24,754 nucleotides of DNA, taken from positions 1 to 24,754 of IMG/VR virus record IMGVR_UViG_3300035703_000397; one strand, 5' to 3'. The notes below the pieces were generated by a model. The model saw only the letters and a program-made list of their open reading frames with translations. It searched no databases and was not told the origin of the DNA. Numbering within the stretch: position 1 is the stretch's first letter; each line of letters begins with the position of its first letter. Source of the stretch: a virus. A program made the translations under genes and the position numbers. Positions 1 through 10,690 of this stretch are shown piece after piece.

Positions 1-57
1 AACTGGTCATCTGCAATTGGCATGGATATAGAATACTCTGAACAAGGAACTAGATAA
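1..57 (+). CDS. C-terminal end of an upstream late (probably structural) protein, partial
   Basis: Frame 1 is open from the first base and ends with TAA at 55-57. It encodes 18 residues ending SAIGMDIEYSEQGTR. The stop shares its last base with the ATG of the next gene (TAATG), the same coupling used throughout this late operon, so it is very likely the end of a real gene that begins outside the window. Too little is visible to name it; by position it should be a tail or fibre protein. Confidence 0.6.
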   Translation, partial: NWSSAIGMDIEYSEQGTR

Positions 58-869
58 TGGCACGTAGTGATATGTACCGTAAACTACCTTGGACAGGTGG
101 TGATGCTAGAAGTGTAGCTGAAATTGTAAACAACCTTGTAGAAGGTAAGTCTAACAACACAGGTGATATTACATTAGCAGCTTCAGGTGCTTCATCTACC
201 ACTATTTATGATGAACGTATAGGTTATAACTCTTATATTGGGCTAGAACCTAAAACACAAACGTCAGCTAGTACATATTTTCCATACGGTTCATTTCAAG
301 ATACGACTGACCAAAGTATAGCCACTATAACAGCTACAGCAAACATTAGTCTTGATACTACAGACTACGCTTTAGGCACAAGTATTGTAGATGGATACAA
401 AATAAAAGTAGACTATTCTGGTCTTTACAATGTGCAATTTAGTATTCAATTAGTTAATACTGATAATGCTCAACATGAAATAGATATATGGTTTCAAAAG
501 AATGGTTCAGATGTTGCAGGTTCTAACAGTAAATTTACAGTTCCAGCTCGTAAAAGTGCAACTATTTATGGAAATATTATTGCAGCATTAAACTTTAATA
601 TAGAACTAGCTAAAGATGACTATGTAAGTTTAGCATGGGCTACAAGTTCTACATTAGTTACAATAGAACATTTAGCAGCACAAACTAGCCCTACTAGACC
701 TGCAACACCAAGTGCTATTGTTACTATTCAGTATTTAAGTGCTAATTCATTTACGACTAACTTATTTACAGAACCTTATATTAGCGCACAGTCAAAAGGT
801 GAAGCTACTATATCGCACCCTGCAAATACAGGCACGAATAAGGTATATCGTTATATAATAGTAGCTTAA
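57..869 (+). CDS. Phage fibre / receptor-binding type virion protein
   Basis: A 270-residue protein rich in Ser, Thr and Asn with low Lys, typical of beta-structured phage surface proteins. Residues about 95-215 alternate short hydrophobic strands and polar turns (for example YKIKVDYSGLYNVQFSIQLV, then IDIWFQKNGSDV). This resembles the C1q/TNF-like jelly-roll repeats of environmental phage fibres; that is a fold impression, not a search result. The short C-terminal strand VYRYIIVA is typical of trimeric fibre ends. It is coupled to both neighbours by TAATG junctions and lies between the end of another structural gene and two acetyltransferase-like genes. The role in host recognition is inferred from position and composition. 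Confidence 0.55.
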   Translation: MARSDMYRKLPWTGGDARSVAEIVNNLVEGKSNNTGDITLAASGASSTTIYDERIGYNSYIGLEPKTQTSASTYFPYGSFQDTTDQSIATITATANISLDTTDYALGTSIVDGYKIKVDYSGLYNVQFSIQLVNTDNAQHEIDIWFQKNGSDVAGSNSKFTVPARKSATIYGNIIAALNFNIELAKDDYVSLAWATSSTLVTIEHLAAQTSPTRPATPSAIVTIQYLSANSFTTNLFTEPYISAQSKGEATISHPANTGTNKVYRYIIVA

Positions 870-1255
870 TGCAGTTTAAATACATACATCCAAATGAGTT
901 AAAACAAGTTTGGAGTCAAATAAAACCAAGTTTAGCAGACATGGCTAGTCGTTCTACATGGATTGTAGAAGATGCTTATTGTGACTTAAAAGAAGGTAGA
1001 GCTCAACTTTACTTAACTATAGAAGATAAATACTTTACCGGATATATCATTACTCAAACATTAGAAGATAAACTACATGTTTGGGCAGCATACAACACTA
1101 ATAATGACGTTCTTAAAGATGGTTTAGAAGCTACAAAAGAATTAGCAAGGCAACAAGGTTTATCAGAAATTACCTTTATTTCACCAAGAAGAGGATGGGA
1201 CAAAATAGCTCCCAAACTAGGCTTTAAACCTTCACAATGGGTCTATAAGCTATGA
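869..1255 (+). CDS. Small GNAT-like acetyltransferase family protein, copy 1
   Basis: 128 residues with the alternating layout of a short GNAT fold: an N-terminal helix (ELKQVWSQIKPSLADMA), central strands (AQLYLTIEDKYFTGYIITQT), a helix with ATKELARQQGL, then a strand and the ending GWDKIAPKLGFKPSQWVYKL. That ending matches the usual GNAT tail, in which a helix carrying a GF-type motif precedes a last strand. The acetyl-CoA loop (Q/RxxGxG/A) is not clear, so activity is uncertain. The start overlaps the previous stop (TAATG). It shares its layout and the 'GWxKxxxxxGxK' ending with the next gene, suggesting a diverged tandem pair. Such proteins often sit next to phage fibre genes. Confidence 0.5.
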   Translation: MQFKYIHPNELKQVWSQIKPSLADMASRSTWIVEDAYCDLKEGRAQLYLTIEDKYFTGYIITQTLEDKLHVWAAYNTNNDVLKDGLEATKELARQQGLSEITFISPRRGWDKIAPKLGFKPSQWVYKL

Positions 1256-1674
1256 TTATCTCATTGGTGATACCTAAAGACTATGACTTATTTTTTCCTG
1301 CTATAGAAGATTATTTAGAACTAGCAAGCCAATATACTTATGGCAGATATAGTGCTAAAGATATACAGGATGAGATGAGAACTAATGAGAAGCAGAATCT
1401 TTGGATAGCTTATAAAGACAATGAGATTTATGGCTTTGTAGTAACAGAAATTATAGAGTATCCGCAAATGACTACTTTAATGATGCACTTTACAGCAGGA
1501 AAAGAATTACCTAAATGGAAAGATTTAATGTTAAACACATTAAGACGATTTGCAAAGGAATCTAATTGTAAAACAATAGAGTCTTATGGTCGTAAAGGTT
1601 GGGGTAAAGTTTTTAAGAATGACGGATACAAAATTAAGTTTATATTTTATGAATTACCTTTGGAGGCAGTATGA
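1252..1674 (+). CDS. Small GNAT-like acetyltransferase family protein, copy 2
   Basis: 140 residues. The middle part (NLWIAYKDNEIYGFVVTEIIEYPQ) reads as the central strand pair of a GNAT fold. The C-terminal part has a helix (WKDLMLNTLRRFAKESNCKTI), a strand, then GRKGWGKVFKNDGYKIKFIFYEL, parallel to the end of the previous gene. As in that gene, no canonical CoA-binding glycine loop is obvious, so it may bind without catalysis. ATGA overlaps join it to both neighbours. Confidence is in the family resemblance only; substrate and role are unknown. Confidence 0.5.
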   Translation: MIISLVIPKDYDLFFPAIEDYLELASQYTYGRYSAKDIQDEMRTNEKQNLWIAYKDNEIYGFVVTEIIEYPQMTTLMMHFTAGKELPKWKDLMLNTLRRFAKESNCKTIESYGRKGWGKVFKNDGYKIKFIFYELPLEAV

Positions 1675-2804
1675 TTGGTTTACACAATTGGCTAGAGAAT
1701 CTAGTTGAATCATTTACATTTTATGGTGGTGGCAAGGGCAAAGGTGGTGGTGGCTCTCAAGCACAAACTCAAACGCAAGATATTGCACCTTGGCTAAAAG
1801 AATATGTAACCTACGGTTTAGGTGAAGCTAAGAACCTTTATCAAGGTTCATCACCAACATACTTTCCTGGTCAAACATACGTTGACCCATCAATGCAAAC
1901 AACATCTGCTATAGATTTAGCTACTAAACGTGCTATGGCAGGAAGTCCTCTAACAAGTGGAGCTATTGCACAACAAACAGGTACAATAGGTGGTTCATAT
2001 TTAGGTGCTAATCCTTATCTTGCAGCAGCATTAAAACCAGGTCAAGAAGCAGCTACAACAGCTTATGAACAAGCTATTAGTGGTGCTAGAAGTAATTTAG
2101 CAGGTGCAGGTCGTTATGGTTCAGGAGCACAAGTGCAACTAGAAAGTTTAGCGGGTAAAAACTTAGCTAATGCACTAGCTAACCAAGCAGGTCAAGCAGC
2201 ATATCAAAACTATGCTACAGAACGTGGCTTACAACAACAATCAGCTTTAGCAGCTCCACAATTAGCTCAATCAGAATATGCTGACATTAACCAACTATTA
2301 CAAGCTGGTCAATTAGGTGAGCAATATAAACAAGCAGCATTAGAATCTGATATTGAAAGATATAACTTTGAGCAACAAAAACCATACGAAAAACTATCTG
2401 CTTATCTTGGTTCAGTATATGGCGCACCTGTTCCTATGACAACTACAGGTTCAAGTACATCTACTGTTAAAAAAGGTAAGATTGTATGCAGCATGATGAA
2501 TGAGTTTTATGGTACTGCACCATTCCGTAATCGTGTATGGCTATTACAATCACAAAGAATGCCTAACGCAAAAGTTATTGAAAAAGGATATCACACAATA
2601 TTCTTACCATTAGTAGAGTTTGCTAAAAAAGATGGCTTCTTAAACAAAGTAGTTCGTAAAACATTAGAACATATTGCTAGACACCGTACAGCAGATGTAT
2701 ATAGAGAAATGCGTAATGGTAAGCGTGATATTTTAGGTCGTATTTATCGTAACATTTTAGAGCCTATTTGCTATGCAACAGGCAAAATGAAAGGTGCAAA
2801 ATGA
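1671..2804 (+). CDS. Internal virion / DNA-ejection type protein
   Basis: 377 residues in two parts. Residues about 20-265 are rich in Ala, Gly and Gln with helical repeats (AAALKPGQEAATTAYEQ, AGKNLANALANQAGQAAYQN), like phage internal head or ejection proteins. Residues about 270-377 form a compact basic domain starting KKGKIVCSMMNEFYGTAPFR, then GYHTIFLPLVEFAKK, LEHIARHRTADVYREM and LGRIYRNILEPICYATGK. I recall this C-terminal module as recurring in podovirus virion proteins but know no established function. A glycine-rich linker (GGGKGKGGGGS) follows the N-terminal helix. It starts on an ATGA overlap and begins a run of four proteins of similar composition, suggesting they enter the host cell together. 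Confidence 0.55.
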   Translation: MIGLHNWLENLVESFTFYGGGKGKGGGGSQAQTQTQDIAPWLKEYVTYGLGEAKNLYQGSSPTYFPGQTYVDPSMQTTSAIDLATKRAMAGSPLTSGAIAQQTGTIGGSYLGANPYLAAALKPGQEAATTAYEQAISGARSNLAGAGRYGSGAQVQLESLAGKNLANALANQAGQAAYQNYATERGLQQQSALAAPQLAQSEYADINQLLQAGQLGEQYKQAALESDIERYNFEQQKPYEKLSAYLGSVYGAPVPMTTTGSSTSTVKKGKIVCSMMNEFYGTAPFRNRVWLLQSQRMPNAKVIEKGYHTIFLPLVEFAKKDGFLNKVVRKTLEHIARHRTADVYREMRNGKRDILGRIYRNILEPICYATGKMKGAK

Positions 2805-3340
2805 GTGACCCAATTACAACAGGTATAGGCATAGGCTTAGGTACTTCTTTATTAACAGGTGGTGACCCATTAAGAGGTGCTGCATTAGGTGGTCTTGGTG
2901 GTGGTGCGTTTGGTGCATTTAAACCAGGTGGCTTTGCATCAGGTATGTTTAAATCAGCAACACCATCAGCAGGCATTATAGGTACTACAGGTGAAATGGG
3001 TTCTAGCTTATTACAAAGTGTTAATCCAGTTACAGGTGCATTGACAAATGCAGGTGCTATTCCATTAAACGCATTTGATAAAATTGGTAATGCTGTAAAT
3101 AGCGTTACTGCTCCATTTGAAAACTTTGCAGCAGAAAATCCATTTTTATCTAGGGTAGGTGCTAATGTATTATCTAATCAAATCATGGGTTCACAAGCTC
3201 CACAAATGCAACCTAGTCCATTAAGTCAAATACCTATTCTTCCAGGTAGAGAATCAGTAGCAGGAAGAGTAACAGGGCTTAGAACTACACCTCAACCACT
3301 AGCTGGTAGAAACATTAATTTTGGCGGTTATCAAGGATAA
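2801..3340 (+). CDS. Glycine-rich hydrophobic virion / ejection protein
   Basis: The start at 2801 (ATGAGTGACC) gives 179 residues and an ATGA overlap with the previous stop. An in-frame upstream ATG at 2768 would add 11 unlikely residues and a larger overlap. The N-terminal third is a glycine-alternating hydrophobic stretch (GIGIGLGTSLLTGG, then GAALGGLGGGAFGAF), resembling membrane-active or pore-forming segments of phage ejection proteins. The rest is Pro/Ala/Asn rich with no visible catalytic motif. I do not recognise a named family; the role is inferred from composition and position. Confidence 0.5.
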   Translation: MSDPITTGIGIGLGTSLLTGGDPLRGAALGGLGGGAFGAFKPGGFASGMFKSATPSAGIIGTTGEMGSSLLQSVNPVTGALTNAGAIPLNAFDKIGNAVNSVTAPFENFAAENPFLSRVGANVLSNQIMGSQAPQMQPSPLSQIPILPGRESVAGRVTGLRTTPQPLAGRNINFGGYQG

Positions 3341-3344
3341 TATT

Positions 3345-4514
3345 ATGGCATTATTTGACACAAATGAATACGGTGGGCTTTTTGATAACCTACCTAATAT
3401 ATTTATGACTCCTGATTTTGCTCAAACAGGAATATTAACAGATGAACAACAAAAAAGTTTAAGAAACCAAGCCACTAAAGCTGGGTTATTAGGTACTGCT
3501 TTAACATATTTTGCGACACCTCAAACAGGAAACTATGGAAGTATTGTTCCTTATTTAGCTAAAGCAGGATTAGGTGGTATGGGTGCAGCACAAGATGTAT
3601 ATGGTGCTGGCTTAACTAATCTTTATAGACAAAGATTGTCAGCAGGTAGAGATAATGAGTTTTCTAATATAAATCCATTAGATGTCACTCCAGAATCACT
3701 TAAAGCATATCAAGATTCAATAGCACAAGGTAAACCAGACCGAAGTTTATTAAGAAGAGCAGCTCCTGTTGAAAAACCAGAATCATTTACTGACGCATAC
3801 AAAAATATATCATTACTTGAATTTGGAACTGCTAACCCTGCTGAATTGACTAAAGAGCAAAGAACAAAACTTTCATCAATGATAAAAGGTGCAGAAAAAA
3901 CTAAAGCAACACAAGATTATACAGAACCACAGTTAGACCAATTAACTGGTAAATATGTTTTCTTACCTAAACGACCAGGATTACCTATTAAAGACTTACA
4001 AGGTAATATTGTTACAGATATTAAATTACCTGAAAAAGCAGGTGAAAAATTAACAGAAGGTGAAAGAACAGCAGGTTTCTTATCAACAAGACTTAATAAC
4101 TCACTTAACCAATTAAAAACAGTAACAGGTGAAAAACCATCTGCTGCTAGTCCAAATGTAAAAGCTGAAGCTATTAAATTCTTTACTCGTTCTGATTATC
4201 TTAAAAACTTAGCTAATCCAGAGTCAAGGCAACAAGTAGAAGCTGCACAATATGATATTCTTGATTCAGCACTAACATTAGGAACAGGTGCTGCGTATAC
4301 AAGAGAACAATTAGAATCATATCGTCAATCCTACTTCCCACAATTAGGCGATAAACCTAAAACAGTTGCAGATAAAGCTAAGCGTTTAGAAGGTCTACTT
4401 GATGCAGCATATCAAAAAGCTGGTCGTGCAGCACCTAAAGAAGCTCAACCACAACCTTCAATGACTATGCCAGCACAACAAGGTTGGTCTATTAAGAAAA
4501 AAACAGGGAGTTAA
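3345..4514 (+). CDS. Internal virion / DNA-ejection type protein
   Basis: 389 residues from the ATG at 3345, 4 nt after the previous stop. A TTG at 3321 would extend it by 8 residues into the neighbour and is less likely. The C-terminal third has a conserved-looking block (GFLSTRLNNSLNQLK, AQYDILDSALTLGTGAAYTR, ESYRQSYFPQLGD, then KRLEGLLDAAYQKAGRAAP). I recognise this as a recurring module in podoviral internal or tail-associated proteins, where many end with a 'SYFPQxGD...A' block. The N-terminus carries an Ala/Gly-rich helix (KAGLLGTALTYFATPQTGNY). No enzymatic motif is evident. It lies third in the four-gene ejection-like run. Confidence 0.55.
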   Translation: MALFDTNEYGGLFDNLPNIFMTPDFAQTGILTDEQQKSLRNQATKAGLLGTALTYFATPQTGNYGSIVPYLAKAGLGGMGAAQDVYGAGLTNLYRQRLSAGRDNEFSNINPLDVTPESLKAYQDSIAQGKPDRSLLRRAAPVEKPESFTDAYKNISLLEFGTANPAELTKEQRTKLSSMIKGAEKTKATQDYTEPQLDQLTGKYVFLPKRPGLPIKDLQGNIVTDIKLPEKAGEKLTEGERTAGFLSTRLNNSLNQLKTVTGEKPSAASPNVKAEAIKFFTRSDYLKNLANPESRQQVEAAQYDILDSALTLGTGAAYTREQLESYRQSYFPQLGDKPKTVADKAKRLEGLLDAAYQKAGRAAPKEAQPQPSMTMPAQQGWSIKKKTGS

Positions 4515-4516
4515 TA

Positions 4517-5620
4517 ATGGCAGTATTTGAAATTACTTCACCTAGTGGAGAAGTGTTTGAGATAACAGCACCAGAAGGTGCTAGTGAACAAGATGTATTA
4601 TCTTATGCACAATCTCAATTTGCTAATCAACCTGCACCAGTAGCACAACCACAAGCAGAGCAAACAACATTTGAAAGAATTAAAACAGGTAACTTTCCAG
4701 CAGCAGAAAGATTTAAAGCTGGATATGAGCAAATGCCAAAGTTTTTACAAGACCCTTATTTAGGATTAAGTGCAGGAACTTTAGGTAAAGTAGGTGCAGA
4801 AATGTTCCCTAATATTGCTAAAACAGTAAGTCAAACAATACCTGAAAAGCTAATGCAAAGTGCTTTAAAGCCTACTCTTAAACAATTAGAAACAGGTCAA
4901 GCATCTACAGCAGTTAAAACTATGCTAGAAGAAGGTATTAATCCTACTCAAGCTGGTGTACAAAAAATACAATCTAAGATTAAAGACTTAAACACTCAAG
5001 TTGCTAATAAAATTGAAGCATCAACAGGAACAGTTAAAAAAACTGACATTCTTAAATACTTAGATGAATTAGAGGCTAAAAAACTTAAACAAGTAAACCC
5101 TGCTGACGATATTGTAGCTATAGATAAAGTTAAGCAAGAATTTATGAACTTTAATAAACCTGTTATTAAAACACCAGGTCAAGCAATTCCTGTGCAATTA
5201 GCTCAACAACTTAAACAAGGTACATATTCTGCTTTAGCTAAAAAATATGGTCAAATGGGTTCTACAGAAATAGAAGCTCAAAAGGCATTAGCACGTGGAT
5301 TAAAAGAAAAAGTAGGGGAGGCAGTTCCTGAAGTGCTTGGGCTTAACAAAAAAGAAGCTCAGTTAATTGATACGTTAGATGTAGTAGAACGTAGAGCATT
5401 AATGGAACTTAATAAAAACCCAGGTGGTTTAACTTGGTTATCTGAAAACCCAATGGCAGCAGCAGGATTTATGGCTGATAAAAGTGCTGTGTTTAAATCA
5501 TTGCTTGCTAGGGGTCTTTATAATCTTAATAAAGGTACAAGTAGAATTCAGGGTCTTTTAAATAAACCCCAAGCTGCACGAGCTGGTGGTCTTTTAACTC
5601 AACCTACAGAGGAACAGTAA
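4517..5620 (+). CDS. Internal virion / DNA-ejection type protein
   Basis: 367 residues beginning MAVFEITSPSGEVFEITAPE. That N-terminal beta-hairpin-like repeat ('xxxPxGxxFEIxAPEGAxExxxLxYAQ') opens many phage internal virion proteins. Residues about 110-300 are strongly helical and Lys/Gln rich (QAGVQKIQSKIKDLNTQVAN, DILKYLDELEAKKLKQVN), likely coiled coil. The end is Gly/Ala rich (LLNKPQAARAGGLL). There is no transglycosylase or peptidase motif. It starts 2 nt after the previous stop and its own stop overlaps the next ATG. The ejection role is inferred from context and composition. Confidence 0.55.
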   Translation: MAVFEITSPSGEVFEITAPEGASEQDVLSYAQSQFANQPAPVAQPQAEQTTFERIKTGNFPAAERFKAGYEQMPKFLQDPYLGLSAGTLGKVGAEMFPNIAKTVSQTIPEKLMQSALKPTLKQLETGQASTAVKTMLEEGINPTQAGVQKIQSKIKDLNTQVANKIEASTGTVKKTDILKYLDELEAKKLKQVNPADDIVAIDKVKQEFMNFNKPVIKTPGQAIPVQLAQQLKQGTYSALAKKYGQMGSTEIEAQKALARGLKEKVGEAVPEVLGLNKKEAQLIDTLDVVERRALMELNKNPGGLTWLSENPMAAAGFMADKSAVFKSLLARGLYNLNKGTSRIQGLLNKPQAARAGGLLTQPTEEQ

Positions 5621-5778
5621 TGGTAAAGTCAGACGTAGAATCACGTTTAAGTACGCATGAAGAAGTTTGTGCGTTACGTTACGAACAAATAAACGCAAGA
5701 CTCAAACGCCTAGAACAAATACTTTTAGGTACAGCAGGTTTTGTTATCGTATTTTTGTTGACTCACTTTACAAAATGA
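5620..5778 (+). CDS. Small holin-like (XhlA-type) membrane protein
   Basis: A 52-residue gene joined by TAATG to the previous stop and by ATGA to the next gene. Residues 1-35 form an amphipathic charged helix (SRLSTHEEVCALRYEQINAR, then LKRLEQ). Residues 36-50 form one transmembrane helix (ILLGTAGFVIVFLLTHF) followed by a short basic end. A cytoplasmic coiled helix plus one C-terminal TM segment is the pattern of the XhlA haemolysin/holin-accessory family, and position at the start of the lysis-like cassette agrees. The function is inferred from topology. Confidence 0.6.
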   Translation: MVKSDVESRLSTHEEVCALRYEQINARLKRLEQILLGTAGFVIVFLLTHFTK

Positions 5779-6134
5779 CATTTATTACAGAGAACAATAT
5801 AGCAAACCTATATTCAGCTCTGATAGACATGCCAATATTTGATGAGTTTAAACTCCCTCCAGCTTCACGAGTGGATTTCGTAATAGTGCATGACGATACT
5901 ATATGTGGACAATACGAACCACCAGAGCAAGGTGAGCCTCATGTTATTACTATATCTACTGCACGTCATTCTCATCTCTATCCTGTCTTAATGACTCTAT
6001 GCCATGAGATTATCCACATGTGCGTATATATAGACTCACCTAAAACAGAACAGTATGCTAGTCATAAAGGTTTATTCTTAAAACTACAAAAGCGTGTAGC
6101 CAAGATGTATGGCTTTGACCCTAAGGAGTTATAA
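5775..6134 (+). CDS. SprT-like zinc metalloprotease
   Basis: 119 residues from the ATG at 5775, which overlaps the previous stop as ATGA. Upstream in-frame TTG codons would run across the 52-residue gene and are rejected. The zinc site is plain: H77-E78-I-I-H81 in CHEIIHMCVY, with a third ligand candidate H97 in ASHKGLFLKLQ, matching the SprT/WSS pattern in which HExxH is followed about 15 residues later by an H-G-x-x-F segment. Cellular SprT-family proteins act on DNA-bound proteins. Here the gene sits between two holin-like genes, so a lysis or ejection-protein role is also possible. There is no signal peptide, so it should be cytoplasmic or virion-borne. Confidence 0.7.
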   Translation: MTFITENNIANLYSALIDMPIFDEFKLPPASRVDFVIVHDDTICGQYEPPEQGEPHVITISTARHSHLYPVLMTLCHEIIHMCVYIDSPKTEQYASHKGLFLKLQKRVAKMYGFDPKEL

Positions 6135-6523
6135 TGTTTAGTTCAATTGCATCTTTAATATTACCAGCTTTAGTACCTGCATTTAGTGATGGTGTTCGTG
6201 GAATCATTGCTAAGTTTACAGGTGGTGCTGGTGGTCAACCACAAAACGTAGAAGAACGAGTAAGGCTCATGGAAGCTGAAGCTGCAAAACTACAGGCTTT
6301 AGCACAATTAGATGGTGTTAATGGTGAACCTTCCAAATGGATTGTAGACCTTCGTGCATCATTTAGATATGTCATCATTAGTTCAATTATGATATTTACC
6401 GCTATAGTAGTATTTAATCCAGATATTGTAGGTGCTGGTGTAGTGGCTGTATTTCTTGATATGACAGGTGCTTGTATGTCTTTTGTAATTGGCGAGAGAA
6501 TGTATCTGACACTTAGAAAATGA
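6134..6523 (+). CDS. Holin, 3-TM (gene-transfer-agent type)
   Basis: 129 residues. The N-terminus is hydrophobic (FSSIASLILPALVPAFSDG), then comes a charged helix (EERVRLMEAEAAKLQALAQL), then two TM segments near the C-terminus (YVIISSIMIFTAIVVFN and VGAGVVAVFLDMTGACMSFV). The loop SKWIVDLRASFR before the first C-terminal TM segment matches the 'W..xxRP..R' region of the 'holin of 3TMs, for gene-transfer release' family as I recall it. Such proteins permeabilise the inner membrane at the end of infection. It is coupled to the protease gene by TAATG and to the next small gene by ATGA. Confidence 0.7.
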   Translation: MFSSIASLILPALVPAFSDGVRGIIAKFTGGAGGQPQNVEERVRLMEAEAAKLQALAQLDGVNGEPSKWIVDLRASFRYVIISSIMIFTAIVVFNPDIVGAGVVAVFLDMTGACMSFVIGERMYLTLRK

Positions 6524-6678
6524 TATTTTTAAACATACTTAACTTTATCGGTTTATCTATACTTAAACTTATCGTAGTGGGACTACTATTTGTAGTCATG
6601 GGTATTGCTTTAGTATTTATGGCAGTTATGGATTATCTTACTATTTTTTTAAAGTACATTAACTCTTATGTTGATTGA
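6520..6678 (+). CDS. Very small membrane protein in the lysis cassette
   Basis: 52 residues starting at an ATGA overlap with the holin stop. Residues about 2-40 are almost entirely hydrophobic (LKLIVVGLLFVVMGIALVFM), giving one long or two short TM helices, with a short polar end (KYINSYVD). It overlaps the next gene by 11 nt. The coupling on both sides and its place beside the holin support a real gene. It could be a holin partner, an antiholin or a spanin-like subunit; the sequence does not decide. Confidence 0.5.
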   Translation: MIFLNILNFIGLSILKLIVVGLLFVVMGIALVFMAVMDYLTIFLKYINSYVD

Positions 6679-7057
6679 AGTTAAAAGGTTTGAATTTAAA
6701 GATACACATACTATAGGCAAGATGTATGTAGACGGTGTATATGAATGTTATACATTAGAAGATGTAGTCAGAAATGGCACTAAAGTCTTAGGTAAAACTG
6801 CTGTCCCTACAGGTGAATATAAACTCATTATAGACAAATCTGTACGCTTTAAACAGGACATGCCACACATACTAAACGTTCCTAACTTTACAGGTGTTCG
6901 TATCCACTCAGGCAATACTTCAGCAGATACAGATGGATGTATATTACTTGGCACAACATGGGCAGGTAAAGACTTTATAGGTAACTCTAAAATAGCCTAT
7001 AACAAGTTCTTTGACAAACTAAAGAAAGCTAAAACAGCCACTATCAAGATATGCTAG
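6668..7057 (+). CDS. DUF5675-like protein, candidate cell-wall enzyme
   Basis: 129 residues matching the DUF5675 pattern: N-terminal strands (EVKRFEFKDTHTIGKMYVDG), a TLED motif, then KTAVPTGEYKLIIDKSVRFK, and the signature GVRIHSGNTSADTDGCILLG around residues 77-96. The His followed by a Cys in 'D-G-C' looks like the H...(S/D)GC active site of L,D-transpeptidase-like folds, so peptidoglycan binding or cleavage is a reasonable inference but is not established. Its place next to the holin makes it one of two candidate lysins; the other is the SleB-like gene at 9522-9914. There is no signal peptide, so it would depend on the holin. Confidence 0.7.
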   Translation: MLIEVKRFEFKDTHTIGKMYVDGVYECYTLEDVVRNGTKVLGKTAVPTGEYKLIIDKSVRFKQDMPHILNVPNFTGVRIHSGNTSADTDGCILLGTTWAGKDFIGNSKIAYNKFFDKLKKAKTATIKIC

Positions 7058-7158
7058 ATTATCTTATTTGCGATATTCTTTGTGCTATAGACCATTTTAA
7101 ATATGTATTACTCATGTTAATTATTTATCTAGTATATAATAAAGTATCTCAACTTTAG
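7051..7158 (+). CDS. Very small membrane peptide
   Basis: 35 residues from the ATG at 7051, overlapping the previous stop by 7 nt (ATGCTAG). It has a polar start, then one hydrophobic helix (YVLLMLIIYLVYNKV). It ends 8 nt before the next gene. The overlap and TM segment match the other tiny genes of this phage, but the length makes it uncertain. It may belong to the lysis set. Confidence 0.4.
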   Translation: MLDYLICDILCAIDHFKYVLLMLIIYLVYNKVSQL

Positions 7159-7166
7159 AGACTACT

Positions 7167-7904
7167 ATGAAAATATTACTTATTGATATAGAAGTAGCGC
7201 CAAATACAGCTCATGTCTGGGGTATCTTTGACCAGAACATCTCTATAAACCAATTACTAGAATCATCTTATACCTTGTGCTATGCAGCCAAGTGGTATGG
7301 TGAATCTAAAATTATGTTTGACTCTATCCAAAAATCTGGCAAACAAAAGATGTTAGACTCTGTGCATAAACTTCTTGACGAAGCTGATGCCATAGTCCAT
7401 TACAACGGTTCTAGGTTTGACATACCCATATTACACAAAGAGTTTTTACTCTCTGGTATGCCACCTCCAGCACCTTCCAAACAGATAGATTTATTACAAG
7501 TAGCTCGTAGACAGTTTAGATTTGTTTCTAACAAACTAGATTATGTAGCACAGGCTTTAGGATTAGGTAGTAAGACAGAACATGAAGGACATGCTTTATG
7601 GGTCAAGTGTATGAATGATGACCGTAAGGCATGGAAAACAATGGAAGAATATAATAAGAATGATGTTATATTACTTGAGAAAGTCTACGATAAATTCAAG
7701 GGTTGGATTAAACAACATCCAAATCATAACGCATATTCTGCTGACGTTTGTTGTCCTAATTGTGCTTCACGCAAATTACAATCTCGTGGTACACAAAGAA
7801 GTAGGACTGCTATTTATCAACGCTATCAATGTCAAAATTGTGGGTCGTGGGCAAGGTCTGTTAAATCAGAAAAAATTGCCAAAGACTCTTTAGTAAATAT
7901 ATAG
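7167..7904 (+). CDS. DEDD-family 3'-5' exonuclease with C-terminal zinc finger
   Basis: 245 residues. Exo I is LLIDIEVAPN (D7, E9); Exo II is IVHYNGSRFDIPIL (N80, D85); Exo III is EEYNKNDVILLEKVY (Y162, D166). This gives the DEDDy set of the RNase H-like/YprB-type 3'-5' exonucleases related to DNA polymerase B proofreading domains. Residues 195-225 form a four-cysteine zinc ribbon (CCPNC ... CQNC) followed by a basic tail, likely for nucleic-acid binding. It is a free-standing exonuclease, not joined to a polymerase, and no DNA polymerase is seen in this window. It lies after the lysis cassette at the end of the late direction, so it may act in host DNA breakdown or end processing. It starts 8 nt after the previous gene. 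Confidence 0.8.
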   Translation: MKILLIDIEVAPNTAHVWGIFDQNISINQLLESSYTLCYAAKWYGESKIMFDSIQKSGKQKMLDSVHKLLDEADAIVHYNGSRFDIPILHKEFLLSGMPPPAPSKQIDLLQVARRQFRFVSNKLDYVAQALGLGSKTEHEGHALWVKCMNDDRKAWKTMEEYNKNDVILLEKVYDKFKGWIKQHPNHNAYSADVCCPNCASRKLQSRGTQRSRTAIYQRYQCQNCGSWARSVKSEKIAKDSLVNI

Positions 7905-7911
7905 GACAATT

Positions 7912-8088
7912 ATGCAACGTTCAGAAGTAGAGATTATCTGTAATCACATGTTAGGTAGAACTATCGTATCCTGTGAAGCATTGCATGGAGATAGCACTAT
8001 AATCATTACATTAGATAATGATAGTGTTGTGGAAATCTCAGGCGAAGAGCTAGCTCTCTATGGCGAACTAACACCAATGGATGACTAG
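7912..8088 (+). CDS. Small unknown phage protein
   Basis: 58 residues, 7 nt after the exonuclease gene with AGGA upstream. The sequence is strand-rich (STIIITLDNDSVVEISGEEL) with an acidic end (ELTPMDD), suggesting a small beta domain. I do not recognise a family. It is the last plus-strand gene before the leftward block and converges with the next gene: both stop codons lie in the same CTAG at 8085-8088. Confidence 0.55.
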   Translation: MQRSEVEIICNHMLGRTIVSCEALHGDSTIIITLDNDSVVEISGEELALYGELTPMDD

Positions 8089-9293: not shown

Positions 9294-9522
9294 TGTTAGC
9301 TTCTACTAATCGTTTACTATCATACTTAGATAATCCTTTATATTCTTCTACAGGTTCACCAGCAACTAATGGTGTTATCTTAATATGATGCGTTGTATTC
9401 TTTAAGTCGTTTAAATATGAGAGCTGGTTAGGATGAAATGACCATAAATAAGACTTCTTTAAATCACCAGACCTAACATCAAACTCTTCATAAAGCCATG
9501 CTACAGGTTCTTTTTTAGCCAT
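9283..9522 (-). CDS. Small unknown phage protein
   Basis: 79 residues beginning MAKKEPVAWLYEEFDVRSGD. The 'EPVAWLYE' start and 'ITPLVAG' segment are typical of a widespread class of short phage proteins ('PVAWxxxxxxG...xxPLY') with no known role. Its start shares one base with the stop of the SleB-like gene upstream (TAATG), so the two are translationally coupled. Confidence 0.55.
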   Translation of the reverse strand: MAKKEPVAWLYEEFDVRSGDLKKSYLWSFHPNQLSYLNDLKNTTHHIKITPLVAGEPVEEYKGLSKYDSKRLVEANNGL

Positions 9523-9914
9523 TAGTAAAACTCCATTCTGCCTAGTTTAACTACTTTCTTTTTTTTCCAAATATGTTGCATGTTTATACTATCATCATGA
9601 AAATAATATGTAGTATTTCCAACAGGGTTAGCATACTTCTTAAAAAACAATGTGTCTACTACTAAAAGTTTAGTCTTTAATAATGCTGCTTTATCTATAT
9701 TCTTTTCATTAACTTTCATCATATCTTGTATGCCTATAAATTGACCTTTGGAAAAAGTTACCTCACACGCATCTTTACCAAATTTACCAGACCTAACTCT
9801 ATTTATTATAGTGAAAAGCACGCCCAATTTGGCTTCAAGTGGTTGTGTATTTGCTTCTGTAAAAATCGCTAAGCTAATACAGTGAACATCTGCTTCTGAA
9901 ACATGTATATCCAT
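9522..9914 (-). CDS. SleB/CwlJ-like cell-wall hydrolase, candidate endolysin
   Basis: 130 residues with the Hydrolase_2 pattern: ISLAIFTEANTQPLEAKLGV (catalytic Glu candidate E20 in 'FTEA'), then LFTIINRVRSGKFGKDACEV, TFSKGQF, and late GNTTYYFH. SleB-family enzymes cleave the glycan strand of peptidoglycan as lytic transglycosylases or amidases. There is no signal peptide, so release would need a holin. It sits in the leftward operon, about 2.4 kb from the holin and on the opposite strand, which is unusual for an endolysin. GAAAGG lies 5-10 nt upstream of the ATG. Confidence 0.75.
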   Translation of the reverse strand: MDIHVSEADVHCISLAIFTEANTQPLEAKLGVLFTIINRVRSGKFGKDACEVTFSKGQFIGIQDMMKVNEKNIDKAALLKTKLLVVDTLFFKKYANPVGNTTYYFHDDSINMQHIWKKKKVVKLGRMEFY

Positions 9915-9938
9915 GATACCTTTCTAATGATTATCTAG

Positions 9939-9967
9939 TGTCTAGCAACCCCACATAAGCGTATAAT
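9939..9967 (+). promoter_or_regulatory. Candidate promoter of pqqA
   Basis: A perfect -10 hexamer TATAAT at 9962-9967 lies 50 nt upstream of the pqqA ATG. The matching -35 position (9939-9944, TGTCTA) is poor, so strength is uncertain or activator-dependent. The leader up to 10017 is very AT-rich and ends with AAGGA 8 nt before the ATG. Confidence 0.45.
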
Positions 9968-10017
9968 TCTATTATATTGTGCAATTAAGCATAATATATT
10001 AATTAAGGATAAATACC

Positions 10018-10089
10018 ATGTGGACAACTCCAGCAGCTACAGAAATTAGATTAGGAATGGAAATCACTGCTTATGTAATGAATCGTTAA
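10018..10089 (+). CDS. pqqA: PQQ precursor peptide PqqA
   Basis: 23 residues: MWTTPAATEIRL followed by GMEITAYVMNR. This matches the PqqA consensus along its whole length: W2, P5, R11, G13, the E15-x-x-x-Y19 pair that the radical-SAM enzyme PqqE crosslinks to start pyrroloquinoline quinone synthesis, and the N22-R23 end. The length equals that of many bacterial PqqA peptides. AAGGA lies 8 nt upstream. The gene runs plus-strand inside a minus-strand operon, with its own -10 box and terminator, like a moron gene. Its last 26 bases overlap, antisense, the end of the HNH gene. No pqqB, C, D or E is visible here, so the phage would feed host PqqD/PqqE. PQQ is the cofactor of MxaF/XoxF methanol dehydrogenases, so increased methanol oxidation during infection is inferred. 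Confidence 0.93.
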   Translation: MWTTPAATEIRLGMEITAYVMNR

Positions 10090-10690
10090 TTTTTTTACAA
10101 AAAGCATTATACAAAGAGGCGGACATTAGTCTGCCTTTTTGCCATTCATCACCTGGACAAATAGCATCTCTTTTATTAATTTGACCATTATTCCACCAAA
10201 AATATTTTCCACTTCTAACTTCTTTCATTTTTGCTTTTGTTTCATCAGACCATGGTTTGCCTTTGGTTCCTTTTTTACTAGAAGGTTTACCTTTTTTTGC
10301 TAATGATATTTTTTGTCTTGTTTCATCACTATGTGCAATACCTTTATTCCAAGGAGTTGCACCTAACATTCTTTTAGACATAATTTCTGCTTGTAATTTT
10401 TTAACATTTATTAATAACATGTGATTATGGTATCTATATTGTTTTGATGTTCTTGCTAACATAGCCATAGCAGACCCAACAACCTTATATAAATTATCTC
10501 CAGTTATAAACTTTGTTAATAATATATGGCACAAAAAATGTTCTCTTGCTGTCAAAACTACTAAATTATCTATACTATCACTACCACCCAAACACTTAGG
10601 TAGGATATGGTGTGTTTCAGTATAGCCATTGTTTACCCTACCCTTTGCGTTATTAATAATATTAAAATACCATTTTTCATATTTGTTCAT
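10064..10690 (-). CDS. HNH homing endonuclease with NUMOD3 motifs
   Basis: 208 residues. The HNH core is TETHHILPKCLGGSDSIDNL (H27-H28, N42), with AREHFLCH carrying the later H51. Residues about 125-170 hold NUMOD3-type DNA-binding repeats (DETRQKISLAKKGKPS and WSDETKAKMKEVRSGKYFW), and NNGQINKRDAICPGDEWQKG is the usual end of this class. It is a free-standing selfish endonuclease between the SSB-like and SleB-like genes. It has its own extended -10 promoter and an AGGGG ribosome site. The last residues (about 200-208) are read from the strand opposite pqqA, which may mean the gene end was extended when the two elements came together. Confidence 0.85.
   Translation of the reverse strand: MNKYEKWYFNIINNAKGRVNNGYTETHHILPKCLGGSDSIDNLVVLTAREHFLCHILLTKFITGDNLYKVVGSAMAMLARTSKQYRYHNHMLLINVKKLQAEIMSKRMLGATPWNKGIAHSDETRQKISLAKKGKPSSKKGTKGKPWSDETKAKMKEVRSGKYFWWNNGQINKRDAICPGDEWQKGRLMSASLYNAFCKKINDSLHKQ
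10113..10140 (+). terminator. Intrinsic terminator of the pqqA unit
   Basis: GGCGGAC (10118-10124), loop ATTA, GTCTGCC (10129-10135) with one G-T wobble, then TTTTT at 10136-10140. The flanking AAAGA upstream pairs with the T tract and lengthens the stem. It lies 28 nt after the pqqA stop on the same strand and is contained within the 3' coding part of the HNH gene. Confidence 0.8.

Follow-up and report, generated by a model that had tools for sequence, protein, structure and literature searches.

The 72-bp gene considered here is a genuine phage pqqA, and it probably serves as a precursor-only auxiliary metabolic gene (AMG), with the phage supplying a consumable substrate peptide and the host enzymes making PQQ for methanol dehydrogenase. 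It is the single PqqA match in the window, i.e. the whole 24,754-base virus record (IMGVR_UViG_3300035703_000397) that was analysed, and reads from an ATG start to a TAA stop (Table 1). The encoded peptide matches Pfam PF08042 (PqqA) along the entire profile (positions 1-19 of 19; 41.2 bits, E 1.5e-10, cut-off 21.1) as well as NCBIfam TIGR02107 (39.1 bits, E 4.7e-10, cut-off 20). It shares with the family a length of 23 residues, W2, P5, R11, G13, E15, T17, Y19 and the C-terminal N-R, the E-x-x-x-Y spacing being provided by E15 and Y19, which we take to be the residues crosslinked by PqqE. The window copy differs from the family in being a solitary, phage-encoded gene, and in its GMEITAY core, found in 0 of 187 host-family genomes. 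The whole-length match, the E15-xxx-Y19 pair, the N-R end and the good ribosome-binding site, all of which a preliminary description had read from the letters of the sequence, were confirmed.

Table 1. Features of the pqqA locus in the window (positions of the whole stretch).
Feature	Position	Strand	Basis or remark
Cell-wall hydrolase (Hydrolase_2, endolysin-like), divergent	9522..9914	-	Pfam PF07486, PHROG 938
Candidate -10 box TATAAT, in the intergenic leader	9962..9967	+	block around AAGCGTATAATTC conserved in the close relatives L289-L294, L297 and L298
Ribosome-binding site AAGGA	10005..10009	+	direct reading of the sequence
pqqA, 23 codons	10018..10089	+	peptide MWTTPAATEIRLGMEITAYVMNR; PF08042 and TIGR02107 above curated cut-offs
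NUMOD3 homing endonuclease	10064..10690	-	PHROG 655, Pfam PF07460
Intrinsic terminator GGCGGAC-ATTA-GTCTGCC-TTTTT	10118..10140	+	28 bases past the pqqA stop

The window record is a tailed phage, encoding TerL, an SU10-type portal, a RecE-like exonuclease, a Sak-like annealing protein, SSB, a DnaB-like helicase and an endolysin. These genes, together with the occurrence of pqqA in sequenced isolates, place the gene in bona fide phage genomes, as is to be expected of an AMG. Host pqqA mis-assembled into viral contigs would offer a trivial explanation, given that IMG/VR contigs can include host DNA and that one INPHARED 'phage' is an Acinetobacter chromosome with pqqABCDE. Such contamination has next to no probability, however, and was ruled out by the isolates, by the phage lysis and recombination genes flanking the window copy, and by the lack of adjacent pqqB-E in every viral copy examined.

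The gene is equipped with signals for its own expression. A Shine-Dalgarno-like motif lies upstream of 125 of 126 phage pqqA copies, compared to 8% of random positions. Terminator-like hairpins were detected within 100 nt 3' of pqqA in 52/124 loci, compared to 2/566 control places, and their sequences are mostly unrelated across loci; the hairpin of the window was missed by a simple terminator search and detected by a scan with its own controls. The candidate -10 box is rated as weak, because the promoter consensus upstream of pqqA (48/124 loci) is only modestly enriched over shuffled sequences (23-37/124).

The window pqqA is oriented opposite to both of its neighbours. The homing endonuclease gene overlaps its 3' end and is inserted between pqqA and ssb, and the closest relatives align to window positions 9400-10090 and then again from approx. 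10745, skipping the endonuclease stretch. In these relatives the leader is near-identical, and the 3' half of pqqA and the sequence downstream of it switch. Taken with its orientation and terminator, these features mark pqqA out as a separate unit on a module border subject to shuffling by recombination. Loci L289-L294 feature the same or nearly the same neighbouring hydrolase, yet encode different PqqA peptides followed by different terminators, a pattern of rapid shuffling with crossovers inside pqqA. The endonuclease, lacking in relatives, may have co-converted the 3' half of the window gene.

Environmental phages carry pqqA in large numbers. A PqqA pattern yielded at least 120 stretches in IMG/VR, and all 120 listed encode a 23-aa PqqA with the stop at the usual place. 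With only residues 1-11 fixed, at least 120 matches were again obtained, 120/120 of those listed keeping G13, E15, T17, Y19 and the stop. When a third pattern allowed a single arginine codon, one that accounts for 13/120 of the open sample, at least 120 matches were still obtained, from which at least about 1,100 pqqA contigs in IMG/VR are estimated by extrapolation. Since pattern scans bias conservation at fixed positions, conservation of E15 and Y19 was judged only on scans leaving residues 12-23 free: in the two samples selected on residues 1-11 only, pooled, 225 of the 227 copies listed keep G13, E15, T17, Y19 and the stop. For 108 distinct DNA sequences, pN/pS was 0.07 for codons 12-23 and 0.13 for codons 4-23, with pS at synonymous sites of 0.56-0.71. 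These values point to purifying selection in phages, and by this measure phage pqqA is selectively maintained. The preliminary description would have abandoned its assignment had the reading frame not been conserved in relatives; conservation turned out to be strong. The other two of the 227 copies (L375 and L407) are truncated after G13 (MWTKP.ATEMRFGLTF), and appear to be products of decay or recombination.

The substitution pattern also bears on the possibility that pqqA DNA is kept as a crossover point between phage modules, and not for its peptide. Its location at a module border with a homing endonuclease inserted alongside, and the leader and 5' half common to close relatives whose 3' halves, downstream parts and terminators differ, would fit such a role. 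A seam operating at the DNA level should conserve bases, however, and not combine high pS with low pN/pS; furthermore, the genes adjoining pqqA in unrelated phages are themselves unrelated. We consider this explanation highly improbable, and retention for the encoded peptide remains the preferred reading.

With regard to INDEPENDENCE and retention, gene sharing divides the 127 loci, one of them the window, into 22, 38 or 53 clusters depending on the threshold, figures that overstate lineage counts somewhat because many loci are short contigs. The window clusters with phages P19250A, Venkman and MEP301. When loci were sampled via the neighbouring hydrolase alone, pqqA was present on the same fragment in 11/12. 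Long TerL relatives of the window carry pqqA in 13/22 cases (13/15 for records >18 kb, and 6/6 for records >34 kb), the negative relatives being shorter records and possibly fragments.

Carriage is limited to the precursor. No pqqB, pqqC, pqqD or pqqE gene was detected in the 127 loci including the window, in a search that recovered its positive control, and pqqE exceeded the cut-off in 0/50 pqqA-bearing phage records; a complete phage-borne PQQ pathway was found in neither set. The earlier statements that no other pqq gene is visible in the window, and that the phage supplies the peptide substrate only, are upheld and extend to these loci and records. The 50 records contain one pqqA each, save G584, with a second copy at the other record end, consistent with an end repeat. 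A PQQ alcohol dehydrogenase was found in 1 of the 50, a 72-kb viral contig (L430 and L431; same record as L058) on which its gene lies approx. 6 kb from pqqA, as in a virus from Lake Baikal (see below).

A tblastn search of the peptide against 50,697 phage records matched exactly 12 of them, i.e. P19250A, MEP301, Venkman, MEP401, MEP402, four records of Melnitz, the Manatee Spring podovirus and two Acinetobacter contigs, and the Acinetobacter PqqA used as independent query retrieved the identical 12. In the rest of the approx. 50,700 phage records, this search detected no pqqA beyond the methylophages, one metagenomic relative and the mislabelled Acinetobacter contigs. One of these two contigs was examined (L008, CAKLQF020000010.1, 'Acinetobacter phage MD-2021a' of INPHARED) and rejected as a pqqA phage, the stretch being bacterial chromosome, with ordinary bacterial genes next to an entire pqqABCDE operon.

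The known OM43 phage isolates Venkman, MEP301, Melnitz and MEP401/402 belong to several distinct groups (PMC10580990). With P19250A, a phage of LD28, six out of six are pqqA-positive, so that every cultured Methylophilaceae phage reported has a 23-aa pqqA, over 9 records and at least three unrelated groups. These isolates alone span the P19250A/Venkman-like group, Zobellviridae and Kyanoviridae. The Manatee Spring metagenomic podovirus is a relative of the window, covering 26% of window positions 1-8000 at 75% identity. Neither the five isolate records examined nor the podovirus record has pqqA annotated: the records of Melnitz and of the podovirus place a hypothetical ORF over it on the opposite strand, and the MEP401 record has no feature under the match. 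The gene is also unmentioned in the open-access papers on the isolates. Under-annotation in related phages had been anticipated, correctly, in the preliminary description.

Among 85,000 bacterial and archaeal species genomes, the peptide signature was found in at least 120 stretches, and the titles among the matches listed are Methylotenera, Methylophilus, Methylopumilus, OM43, Methylobacillus, other Methylophilaceae and loosely named bins (Nitrosomonadales, Betaproteobacteria, proteobacterium). Most phage copies spell the host's own peptide, and the commonest phage peptide, MWTTPAATEMRFGFEVTMYVMNK, is letter-for-letter identical to many chromosomal Methylophilaceae copies. Judging from this identity, the common phage peptide would be bound by PqqD and crosslinked by PqqE of the host. 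The methylotroph host proposed earlier is supported by this peptide and by gene sharing with cultured Methylophilaceae phages. A host homologue and a pathway to be fed, as required for an AMG, are both present: 20 Methylophilaceae genomes contain 1-12 pqqA each, with pqqE over the cut-off in 18 of them, and pqqC exceeds the cut-off in 168/187 genomes of the family. One marine Methylophilaceae bin (L260, FRAM18_bin317, 1.0-Mb contig) features a solitary pqqA without pqqC and without pqqE over the cut-off, and is possibly a PQQ auxotroph or has a divergent pathway.

Published Methylophilaceae have 3-12 pqqA copies but only one set of the remaining pqq genes (PMC4109929). A different methylotroph has five pqqA copies, of which two were expressed far more strongly than the rest (PMC9851590). 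The phage gene resembles the solitary extra pqqA of Methylophilaceae chromosomes (PMC4109929) in specifying the same peptide without a matching extra pqqBCDE set. It differs from them in being carried by a phage with a terminator of its own and, in the lineage of the window, in being adjoined by lysis or recombination genes.

The window peptide itself represents a variant. Its GMEITAY core, in place of the usual GFEVTMY, occurs in 15 other viral contigs (L024, L040, L077, L095, L419-L429), and is absent from the 187 Methylophilaceae genomes and from 369 sampled genomes of the wider class. Processing of the window variant by host PqqE is therefore not implied by identity. The functional PqqA of Methylorubrum has a similar core, GMEVTSY, and by analogy the window variant is likely competent. 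Alternatively, phage PqqA could be a decoy or brake, binding PqqD/PqqE unproductively and thereby stopping PQQ synthesis or freeing SAM for the phage. That some phages, including that of the window, carry a variant unseen in hosts (16 viral contigs) might be taken to favour such a role. A blocker should nevertheless lose E15 or Y19, both retained in nearly all copies as given above, and the commonest phage peptide, being the host substrate, would be processed and would not block. A decoy function is very unlikely on these grounds, and the peptide is better regarded as a substrate.

Each PQQ made costs one PqqA peptide, the substrate of PqqE/PqqD, whereas the enzymes serve repeatedly. With such stoichiometric use, a 72-bp substrate gene alone would be the cheapest way to sustain supply; it can be of use only in a host equipped with the enzymes, as Methylophilaceae hosts are. 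In the proposed mechanism, when the phage infects a Methylophilaceae methylotroph, pqqA would be transcribed separately, as a short RNA of its own. Host PqqD/PqqE would take the phage peptide and crosslink E15 to Y19, and host PqqB, PqqC and a protease would then yield PQQ for the methanol dehydrogenase XoxF or MxaF. Cofactor supply and methanol-derived energy could in this way be kept going as host transcription falls. On this view, pqqA would be expressed in infection, the window variant would be processed, and PQQ and burst size would be affected; methanol oxidation that is sustained or raised, as first suggested in the preliminary description, is plausible.

In Acetobacter, overexpression of pqqAB increased PQQ by 29%, and that of the whole cluster eightfold, so that PqqA is not the sole limit; single-gene overexpression of pqqA in Gluconobacter is cited in the same source as raising PQQ (PMC7936290). 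By analogy with these results, a modest gain from the precursor alone is plausible. PQQ could also serve another purpose, e.g. upon release it could close an outer-membrane receptor of the PqqU type and so exclude competing phages. In E. coli, PQQ-bound PqqU indeed blocks a phage using PqqU as its receptor (PMC12124388). A PqqU-like receptor for methylophages is without support, however, and the energy dependence of the hosts on PQQ enzymes provides a simpler account, the carriers among named phages being phages of PQQ-dependent methylotrophs and one window relative. We regard exclusion of competitors as very unlikely indeed, and feeding of the host pathway remains the favoured reading.

AMGs of the psbA type in cyanophages maintain, while infection lasts, a part of the host energy apparatus that is rapidly consumed. 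Phage pqqA is alike in this upkeep, and differs in that the consumed substrate peptide of a cofactor pathway is brought in, rather than an enzyme or photosystem protein, an unusual logic for an AMG. Methylotroph phages seem commonly to replenish a host cofactor precursor. It is tempting to speculate further that PqqA-only supply has been acquired repeatedly and marks nearly all phages infecting PQQ-dependent methylotrophs, much as psbA marks cyanophages, that dehydrogenase maturation in infected cells is limited by the size of the PqqA pool, and that GMEITAY peptides are phage-evolved substrates with altered PqqD/PqqE handling, although we hold this wider proposal only tentatively and think it rather doubtful as a whole.

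Whether a phage pqqA had been reported before was left undecided in the preliminary description. In outline it had: one viral population from Lake Baikal (VP_266) was annotated in 2020 with PqqA together with methanol dehydrogenase (PMC7678222), and a 2026 reservoir study listed pqqA among virus-encoded genes (PMC13188868). The Baikal case is alike in concerning a presumed methylotroph virus with PqqA, for which an AMG role in methanol oxidation was put forward. It is a single annotated case accompanied by viral methanol dehydrogenase, whereas here pqqA stands alone as an unannotated small ORF in many lineages and in cultured phages. The scale, host specificity and precursor-only pattern of phage pqqA appear to be new within the open-access literature, in which nothing was found linking pqqA to cultured methylophages or giving its prevalence; subscription papers lay outside this search, and priority is not certain. 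In lakes and coastal seas, OM43 and freshwater Methylophilaceae are important methanol consumers. Were their phages to feed the PQQ pathway as a rule, viral infection would directly modulate C1 oxidation, by means of a 72-bp gene that is missing from the deposited isolate annotations. The PqqA peptide also provides a ready host marker, pointing to the host family, and the existence of several phage-host pairs in culture, among them Venkman and Melnitz with Methylophilales H5P1 and P19250A with IMCC19250, makes the question directly testable. The medium described for OM43 includes 1 nM PQQ (PMC9004378), an amount that could hide a phenotype.

An alphaproteobacterial-type pqqA pattern matched a single viral contig (L311), with the peptide at the contig edge, so that the phenomenon looks specific to PqqA of the Methylophilaceae-like and MWTKPxYExxRLGFE[VI]TMYF-like types. 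A second phage PqqA type, MW.KP.YE..RLGFE[VI]TMYF, was observed in L011, L019, L021, L027, L033, L043, L052, L060 and L126, and the phages carrying it probably infect another group of PQQ-making hosts. Finally, pqqA is also present on a viral contig of 356 kb (L039), where it encodes the peptide MWTKPTAQEMRFGFEITMYVMNR.
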